DNA from: Mesobacillus jeotgali
GTDB taxonomy: Bacteria; Bacillota; Bacilli; Bacillales; Cytobacillaceae
Assembly (NCBI RefSeq): GCF_900166585.1
Contig: NZ_FVZC01000003.1
Location: forward strand, 1 to 33,184
Reading direction: 5' to 3'
DNA length: 33,184 nucleotides
In this document: positions 16,722 through 18,009 of the stretch, piece by piece
How positions within the stretch are numbered: the stretch's first letter is position 1
Layout: each line of letters begins with the position of its first letter
Notes under the pieces: generated by a model
Databases searched by the model: none
What the model saw: the letters and a program-made list of their open reading frames with translations, nothing else
What the model was told of the DNA's origin: nothing
Translations under genes and position numbers: made by a program

Positions 16722-16763
16722 CATAAAGAAATCCCCTATCGCTTGATAGGGGATTTCTTTATG
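16722..16763. terminator. strong bidirectional terminator between convergent genes
   Basis: A perfect 19-bp palindrome (16722-16740 with 16745-16763) with a GCTT loop. The core is AAATCCCCTATC and its complement, flanked by CATAAAG / CTTTATG. It can serve the ECF gene from the left and the RacA-like gene from the right. Confidence 0.85.
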
Positions 16764-16794: not shown

Positions 16795-16972
16795 CGATAT
16801 GTATGCCTAAAATGCTGTAGATATTTCTCGGGAAATTGTTGAAATTTGAAAGTGAAATATCGCTTCTCTGACTTTATTGTCGAAGGCTTCAAGATACACC
16901 TTTCATATCGCCCAGCGATATACAAAGCAATGCGACAGCTTCTCATGCAAACCAGGCATGTTGCGTATATCG
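16795..16972. repeat. ATATCG/CGATAT site array downstream of the RacA-like gene
   Basis: In this gene-free stretch the hexamer ATATCG or its complement occurs at 16795, 16857, 16905, 16916 and 16967. Two of them form a perfect palindrome ATATCGC-CCA-GCGATAT (16905-16921). A variant TCGCTATAT lies at 17016-17024 and recurs at 17826-17834 on the other side of the gene. Chance would give well under one hexamer hit in this length. I interpret them as candidate binding sites for the adjacent HTH protein. No gene is supported in 16688-17032: the 105-codon frame there runs through the terminator palindrome. Confidence 0.6.
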
Positions 16973-17032
16973 GAATGCAATACACTGTTTGCTAACTGTC
17001 TTCTTTATAATAGAATCGCTATATCCAGTATT

Positions 17033-17734
17033 TTATTTCTTGAATAAAGAAAATAGCCAGCCCCATTTTCTATTCTGTATCTCCGCTTCTAAACGTTTGT
17101 TAAAATCATTTTGGGAAATCCACTCATTCTTTTGTTCTTCCCGTATTCTTTGTAATTCATTTTGCAGCAGTTCGCTCTTTTCTCTTTCCTGTTCCAGCAG
17201 GCTTTCGTAATGGGTATTTTGCTGTTCGATGATTTTTTCAATCTTCGAATTGGTTCTTTGTGCTGAATTCCCGATGCTGGAGCTGATTACATGATGATCC
17301 TGCTGGAGCTGGGAAACATTCGTCTTCAGCTGAGCCATATCGCTTTTTAGCTGCAGGTTCATTTCACGGGCTGCTGCTAGTTCATTTACAACAAAAAGCA
17401 AAACCTCTTTTAGCTGATTAGGATCCTGCGGCAGATTTTCGTATGTATCGTTAAGAGCGATTTCGGTACCTCCCGCTCCTTCAAGCTTCTCCTTTTGCTC
17501 AGCCACGAGATCCTTGGCCGTTTCATCCAGAGGCTTGTCCGTATCGCGTAACGCTACAAGCGCTTTAATATCAGATTGAACAAAGATTCGCCGATCCCCA
17601 TCTTTTAAGAACTCGTAGCCATTGCGCTCAAGAATCTGTCCATACTTTCGGACTGTAGGAGTCGCAATCCCCACTTCCTCCGCTACTTCCTTCGTTGAGA
17701 ATGCCTGTTCATTCGGTTGTATATCGTGTCGCAT
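17033..17734 (-). CDS. RacA-like protein: MerR-type HTH, coiled coil, amphipathic C-terminus (DUF3967-like)
   Basis: This 233-residue protein starts with a MerR-like helix-turn-helix (~11-58, FSTKEVAEEVGIATPTVRKY then GDRRIFVQSDI). An acidic linker follows, then a long coiled coil (~105-205). It ends in a short aromatic and basic tail, RKWGWLFSLFKK, which could touch the membrane. The layout recalls B. subtilis RacA, which tethers DNA to the cell pole, and DUF3967 proteins common on Bacillus plasmids. Two starts are possible. The ATG at 17743 lies only 3 nt after AGGAGG, so the ATG at 17734 (12 nt) is used here with reservation. ATATCG sites flank and overlap the start, which suggests autoregulation or a partition-like function. 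Confidence 0.82.
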   Translation of the reverse strand: MRHDIQPNEQAFSTKEVAEEVGIATPTVRKYGQILERNGYEFLKDGDRRIFVQSDIKALVALRDTDKPLDETAKDLVAEQKEKLEGAGGTEIALNDTYENLPQDPNQLKEVLLFVVNELAAAREMNLQLKSDMAQLKTNVSQLQQDHHVISSSIGNSAQRTNSKIEKIIEQQNTHYESLLEQEREKSELLQNELQRIREEQKNEWISQNDFNKRLEAEIQNRKWGWLFSLFKK

Positions 17735-17842
17735 ATCGCACATGCACCTCCTAAATACCAATATGCTAGGTTTTAACCACAAATACAAGAGTCATATCGT
17801 CTATATTTATATTCTAGCAGATAGATCGCTATATACATATCG
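17721..17842. repeat. ATATCG site array over the start of the RacA-like gene
   Basis: ATATCG occurs at 17721, 17733, 17794 and 17837. The TCGCTATAT variant lies at 17826-17834 and related TATCG/CGATA pieces at 17841 and about 17898. The first two copies are 12 bp apart and cover the start codon and first codons of the RacA-like gene. A further exact copy lies inside the gene at 17337. With the downstream array this gives ten exact hexamers in ~1.05 kb. The remaining gene-free sequence to 18009 shows no other feature. Confidence 0.6.
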
Positions 17843-18009
17843 TATCGGCAGATTTTTTCATTCCTATAGTCTATTTAGAGGGTTAACCTTTATAAAAGCG
17901 ATACATACGCCTGCAAAACGCCGAGATGTTCCCTGCCTCTCTTAAACCTTTGCGATTTATTTTCTTAGGCTGAATTCAGCGGTATGTTTTCATATAGTAG
18001 GAGAAGAAT

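Follow-up and report, generated by a model that had tools for sequence, protein, structure and literature searches.

Introduction

RacA, a Bacillus subtilis protein of polar chromosome anchoring during sporulation that depends on DivIVA, the single-protein plasmid partition protein Par of the Staphylococcus plasmid pSK1, and the Streptococcus chromosome segregation protein RocS are the described systems closest to the locus reported here. Par has its cognate repeats at its own gene. RacA sites are described as dense near the origin and spread over the chromosome (PMC6593407). RocS is described as having a winged helix-turn-helix (wHTH) and a coiled coil, followed after a kink by a short membrane helix at the C terminus (PMC11500499, PMC13042908), and RocS and Par are said to have in common the wHTH, the coiled coil and a MinD-like tail, both being proposed as DNA-membrane tethers (PMC11500499). 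How such ATPase-free single-protein systems hold or move DNA is presented in that report as an open question (PMC11500499).

We analysed a stretch of 33,184 nucleotides from Mesobacillus jeotgali (hereafter the window), in which a wHTH-coiled-coil gene lies within an array of what appear to be its own targets, as is also seen in some distant plasmid relatives, and which may thus encode a one-gene chromosome anchor. Our best reading, to which we give even odds, is that a single protein encoded near the origin regulates its own gene and anchors or partitions DNA in the manner of pSK1 Par, RocS and RacA, although it lies outside those families. A literature search, for which subscription papers were mostly out of reach, showed no paper on this locus among those listed.

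Results

A gene enclosed by an array of short sites

The gene occupies positions 17033 to 17734 on the minus strand and encodes 233 amino acids if translation starts with the ATG at 17734. The reading frame has another ATG farther upstream, at 17743, which corresponds to a product of 236 amino acids, but we prefer the second ATG because in most relatives AGGAGG sits 6-7 nt before it; in the window this ribosome-binding site, a sequence match, is at 17747 to 17752 on the minus strand. Upstream of it, on the same strand, a sigma-A-like promoter lies at 17760 to 17788, with a -35 element TTGTAT (17783-17788), a spacer of 17 bp and a -10 element CATATT (17760-17765). Its neighbours, one on either side, are genes for a riboflavin-type ECF transporter and for a succinyl-CoA:acetate CoA-transferase. 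At 16725-16760 a terminator-like hairpin, recognised by eye, ends the ECF transporter gene and borders the 3' array.

An earlier note on this DNA had counted ten exact ATATCG/CGATAT hexamers in 1,048 bp around the gene, and all ten are present, far above expectation (2,000 dinucleotide shuffles of this segment gave 0.82 on average and never more than 5). The whole window holds 24 ATATCG sites, a number reached in 1 of 100 whole-window shuffles. The placement described in that note is also correct: five hexamers lie behind the gene (16795, 16857, 16905, 16916 and 16967), four lie over or upstream of the start codon (17721, 17733, 17794 and 17837), and the remaining one is inside the gene, at 17337. 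In the 3' cluster (16795 to 17024) the half-sites at 16795, 16857 and 16967, together with TCGCTATAT at 17016, surround the perfect ATATCGC-N3-GCGATAT palindrome reported behind the gene, which we located at 16905 to 16921 with CCA as its spacer and which is the sole exact TATCGC-N3-GCGATA of its own genome; relatives also have downstream clusters. The 5' cluster (17794 to 17847) comprises CGATAT at 17794-17799, 5 bp off the -35 element, then TCGCTATAT at 17826, which is thus found in a single copy on each side of the gene as claimed, ATATCG at 17837 and CGTATCG at 17841. Across the start codon there is a direct repeat of CGATAT with 12-bp spacing (17721 to 17738), which reads GCGATATGCGACACGATATA in the window. 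Within the gene we found, besides the half-site at 17337 to 17342 (plus strand; GCGATAT on the coding strand), a palindrome-like site with two mismatches at 17542 to 17556, within conserved coding sequence; such in-gene palindrome-like sites may reflect coding only, because conserved residues are encoded there.

The sites are conserved in relatives and linked to the gene

As relatives we kept the best 80 of 128 matches from one scan of genome contigs, which with the window make 81 loci that are not phylogenetically independent. Their proteins are 70-90% identical to the window protein, with a mean column identity of 83% over 38 aligned sequences, and their records carry the names Mesobacillus, Cytobacillus, Peribacillus, Metabacillus, Rossellomorea, Neobacillus, Sutcliffiella, Halalkalibacter, Fictibacillus, Alkalihalobacillus, Fredinandcohnia, Gottfriedia and Bacillus. 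One further record, labelled Chryseobacterium sp. ISL-80, is a Bacillaceae locus at 90% protein identity, and its label looks wrong.

In the 800-bp flanks of the relatives' genes we counted 264 copies of ATATCGC/GCGATAT, spread over 79 of 80 loci, where the frequency in DNA beyond 3 kb would predict 15.6. For GCGATATA/TATATCGC the count was 138 against 3.5 expected on the same basis (72 of 80 loci). Site density is high over about 200 bp upstream, within the gene and over some 500-1,000 bp downstream, and in 76 of 80 loci no more distant 1 kb of that locus is as dense as the densest 1 kb at the gene, with a tie in 3. Spacing was likewise conserved beside the relatives' genes, as the earlier note had proposed to check: among exact TATCGC-Nx-GCGATA arrangements with spacers of 0-12, x was 3 in 93 of 93 cases, the commonest spacer being TGG (49). 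Exact palindromes were found in the gene or its flanks in 53 of 81 loci, and when up to two mismatches are allowed the flanks contain 187 (52 upstream and 135 downstream, against 2.1 expected), with at least one in all 81 loci; beyond 3 kb from the gene, these loci have 7 exact palindromes in 1.09 Mb of DNA. The promoter pattern, searched as a regular expression, matched 51 of 81 loci, 49 of them with a spacer of 17, and has a half-site just 5' of the -35 element.

Conservation extends to sites within the reading frame. Under the start-site repeat, which coincides with the residues MRxDI, Asp is encoded by GAT in 79 of 79 loci, Ile by ATA in 76 of 79 and Arg by CGA in 71 of 79 (L073 and L074, which do not have MRxDI, were left out), whereas at other positions of the genes the same codons account for 64%, 40% and 20%, respectively, some of the codons counted there being flanking DNA in L048, L073, L083, L092 and L097, where the matched stretch is longer than the gene. 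The start-site codons are nearly fixed, and therefore the DNA, beyond the protein alone, is held constant. The in-gene half-site also recurs at one place, which is occupied in most relatives (AACGATATG in 51 of the 72 loci covered, out of 81).

We then compared 25 genomes carrying the gene, drawn from about 80 close-match genomes (90 with any match) and picked, G029 excepted, for few contigs, with 25 non-carriers drawn from 103 genomes without a match. Carriers have 44 exact palindromes, of which 38 lie within 2 kb of a gene copy or remnant (hand count) and 6 elsewhere, against 5 in the non-carriers; reversed-pattern controls gave 4 in each set. Carriers often have two palindromes at the gene, the first some 65 bp in front of it and the second some 45 bp behind. 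The exact palindrome is absent from 9 of the 25 carriers, among them all six of the same genus, and the gene itself is missing from about half of the genomes in the GTDB family. The idea that the sites form a set tied to the gene was borne out, as they flank the gene in all 80 kept relatives and the exact palindrome is at background in the 25 non-carriers, and we regard conservation and gene linkage of this candidate set as well supported. The hexamer ATATCG is part of a larger unit, the conserved unit being TATCGC-N3-GCGATA together with half-sites and the 12-bp direct repeat over the start codon.

A predicted three-part protein

Structure prediction agrees with the MerR-type HTH plus coiled-coil layout first read from the sequence. 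In the model (236-residue numbering, minus strand) a MerR-type winged-helix domain spans residues 13-90 (17474 to 17707) and a long coiled-coil helix residues 108-224 (17072 to 17422), and past a break there is a C-terminal basic-aromatic tail with a short helix at 228-234 (17036 to 17071), the tail being conserved in the alignment. This last helix is a possible membrane-targeting helix. The amphipathic character earlier ascribed to the tail could not be told apart from that of shuffled tails, 17% of which reach its hydrophobic moment of 0.49, and as this is not significant we dropped amphipathicity as proof. The predicted fold is a MerR-type wHTH nearest to RacA-type DNA-binding domains, and the score for the MerR Pfam family PF00376 is below gathering (14.4 against 28.2 bits). 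Neither DUF536 (PF04394) nor PF13152 (DUF3967) appears among the Pfam matches listed for the window protein, the former up to E 1.

The protein had also been called RacA-like, and this identification was not upheld. The RacA family model NF009646 is not among the NCBIfam matches of the window protein up to E 1, and another gene of the same genome does match it, with an E-value of 1.6e-16 but short of the curated cut-off, a shortfall common to all 173 matching genomes and to the B. subtilis control. The missing family-model match and the separate RacA-like gene rule out RacA orthology. RacA-style dispersal of sites is ruled out for the exact palindrome only, 38 of 44 copies being at the gene's own locus.

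The protein could be a local autoregulator only, controlling its own gene and perhaps a neighbour and having no architectural or segregation role. In favour of this explanation, there are sites beside the promoter and across the start codon, and the closest folds of the window protein are mostly MerR-type transcription regulators; against it, 135 of the 187 flanking palindromes lie behind the stop codon and some sites are in the gene, the neighbours change between genera, and the model has a long coiled coil and no predicted ligand domain. We therefore consider purely local autoregulation unlikely.

Relatives on plasmids and distant chromosomes

Distant matches were found by tblastn in 132 plasmid records and in no phage record, and a phage origin was set aside. 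In the 20 matches listed, the wHTH of plasmid relatives is 27-51% identical to that of the window protein. The DUF3967/MerR proteins of Bacillaceae plasmids have a related wHTH, a coiled coil and a basic-aromatic tail, as in the window protein, and some members on large plasmids have arrays, but the core bases of their sites differ from those in the window. Six of nine plasmid relatives pass the PF13152 cut-off and one falls just short; L111 and L118 were not among the proteins listed.

In two near-identical Priestia megaterium loci, on plasmids of 103 and 116 kb, the gene is near replication and stabilization genes. The first of them has tandem 74-bp repeats with TGTTGCCCATCGACATA upstream, TGTCGCCCTGCGATA sites downstream, half-sites across the start codon and one palindrome inside the gene. 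Of the 23 CGTTATA half-sites on P. filamentosa p1, 22 lie in the interval from ParM to the gene, and TATAACG-N5-CGTTATA is formed by some of the 23; pBstUI51 has two TATAACG 12 bp apart before the start. The CG-N5-CG spacing and the 12-bp repeat are thus retained on plasmids with other core bases. On plasmids L118 and L121, ParM/StbA genes are annotated beside or near the wHTH relatives, so that the plasmid protein may work with a filament.

Arrays are restricted to a minority of the distant relatives. In a test for enriched 6-mers on 27 of 28 loci (L140, for which no reading frame was obtained, was left out), six loci were at 0 of 200 shuffles (L111, L118, L120, L124, L131 and L141, with L111 and L124 near-identical), L132 was at 3 of 200 and L130 at 4 of 200, and the other 19 at 12 of 200 or more. 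A second test, for CG-NN-ATA, placed four of 11 plasmid loci at 0 of 300 shuffles (L111, L118, L122 and L124), with L120 at 24 of 300; L122 fails the 6-mer test (49 of 200). The small plasmids L113, L114 and L123 had no array that we could see. A rule that every distant relative has an array was rejected, since most show no clear one. L131 and L141, both on a 3.8-Mb contig of G124, are distant chromosomal relatives in regions enriched in other CG-words, GAACGA occurring 19 times in the first and AAAACG 9 times in the second.

Chromosomal position and history

The gene and dnaA are on one contig in 25 of 27 genomes searched, and in all 25 the gene is oriented away from dnaA at a distance of 150-672 kb (distances taken by hand, one genome size being rounded). 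The gene is on the other arm, still within 0.7 Mb, in G066 and G155 and, as an extra copy, in G029. Proximity to the origin is largely shared synteny, because groEL is within about 120 kb of a gene copy in 22 of 25 genomes; in G121 groEL is on a different contig. The genes flanking the locus vary from genus to genus.

We found 85 extra pieces of the gene near it, mostly decayed and without exception on the same strand; 65 are downstream, in 23 of the 81 loci, and 20 are upstream, in 12 loci. Some pieces in L048, L073, L083, L092 and L097, for the most part short and immediately upstream, match flanking DNA instead, and one in L097 is a near-full second copy. Being nearby and on the same strand, they point to repeated tandem duplication and decay. 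Decayed copies beside an intact gene, mostly downstream, can be seen for instance in L046, L049, L055-L063 and L103, and in G029, G065 and G124.

Such a history could suggest a settled plasmid-derived or selfish cassette, namely a former plasmid partition or incompatibility locus that copies itself or acts against incoming plasmids with the same sites. The many plasmid relatives, the decayed same-strand copies, the variable neighbours and the absence from part of the family are compatible with it, but the proteins are strongly conserved, the core bases of the chromosomal half-sites are unlike those of the plasmid arrays seen, and the gene mostly stays in the groEL region, and we consider this explanation improbable.

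ATATCG elsewhere in the genome

The earlier note had named equal ATATCG density elsewhere in the genome as a ground for refutation, and in part this objection applies, as the locus is not unique in raw density: three intergenic repeat blocks, picked by clustering of GCGATATA among the first 100 genomic places listed, hold 6, 8 and 14 ATATCG in their densest 1,048 bp, against 10 here. The palindrome and its conservation still set the locus apart. The blocks, outside the window (L142 2490-2750, L143 1690-2460 and L144 1680-2260), are intergenic tandem repeats rich in TATATCGCCCAC/ATATCGACCAC, and their common 12-mer TATATCGCCCAC has 12 copies in this genome and 0 or 1 in each of 20 other genomes of the genus. 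Kinship of the array with these repeats was set aside, as they are tandem repeats with other flanks. One-mismatch matches to the palindrome occur at six more places in the genome, against five control places. A functionless run of ATATCG due to chance or local composition, for which one could cite these three ATATCG-rich blocks, one of them denser, hardly merits consideration given that none of 2,000 local shuffles matched the array, that it is kept in 80 relatives with a fixed 3-bp spacer, and that the other blocks have different flanks and a 12-mer almost wholly confined to this genome.

Discussion

We favour an anchoring or partition locus, in which a dimer of the MerR-type winged helix would bind TATCGC-N3-GCGATA and the half-sites around its own gene, and the sites beside the -35 element and across the start codon would repress that gene. 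Through the coiled coil, dimers bound at several places in the array would join in a single nucleoprotein complex, and the basic-aromatic C-terminal helix would tether this complex to the membrane, so that a point of the chromosome near the origin is held in place. Binding of the protein to these sites we hold to be very likely and autoregulation by it probable, while for an anchoring or partition role the odds appear to be even. This last role is supported by the relatives on large plasmids, which lie beside replication, stabilization or ParM genes and have arrays of the same geometry, and by the constant orientation and limited distance of the gene relative to dnaA. Several observations count against it: a RacA-like gene is also present, and the need for a second anchor is not accounted for; arrays are found in a minority of distant relatives, and nine carriers have no exact palindrome; the tail's amphipathicity is not significant; groEL synteny goes with the position; and about half of the family's genomes do not have the gene.

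A broader proposal, which we put forward tentatively as possible rather than probable, is that many Bacillaceae chromosomes possess, in addition to a RacA-like gene, an autonomous centromere consisting of one gene. It would be a partition cassette of plasmid type that has settled close to the origin, with the protein's sites in promoter, start codon, coding sequence and flanks. Across the wider family the site would keep one geometry (CG-N5-CG palindromes, with a 12-bp repeat at the start) and switch two core bases (AT, AC, TT), a code by which centromeres on chromosome and plasmids would be compatible with one another. The locus is a chromosomal system that resembles RocS and pSK1 Par, and its candidate site in soil bacilli is short and conserved. 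The sites of plasmid relatives depart from it chiefly at two core bases, and direct tests of recognition, anchoring and compatibility are thus within reach.

Compared with the known systems, the window protein is predicted to have a MerR-type winged helix of the RacA type, but ram sites of RacA are distributed chromosome-wide (PMC6593407), whereas exact sites of the window type are confined to their own locus. RocS, like the window locus, is chromosomal, and the window-protein model resembles it in having a break and then a short last helix, with a membrane character of the tail that is not significant. RocS and pSK1 Par have DUF536, in contrast to the window protein, which has no match to it. 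No defined target site for RocS was met in the portions of PMC11500499 and PMC13042908 available to us, whereas the window locus has conserved candidate sites; RocS localises to the membrane at the cell equator. Like pSK1 Par, a plasmid system with cognate repeats at its own gene, the chromosomal locus has candidate cognate sites in its conserved, gene-linked palindromes. By analogy, Par is most plausibly the closest parallel, with one protein, its own array and autoregulation, of which the window locus would be a chromosomal variant.
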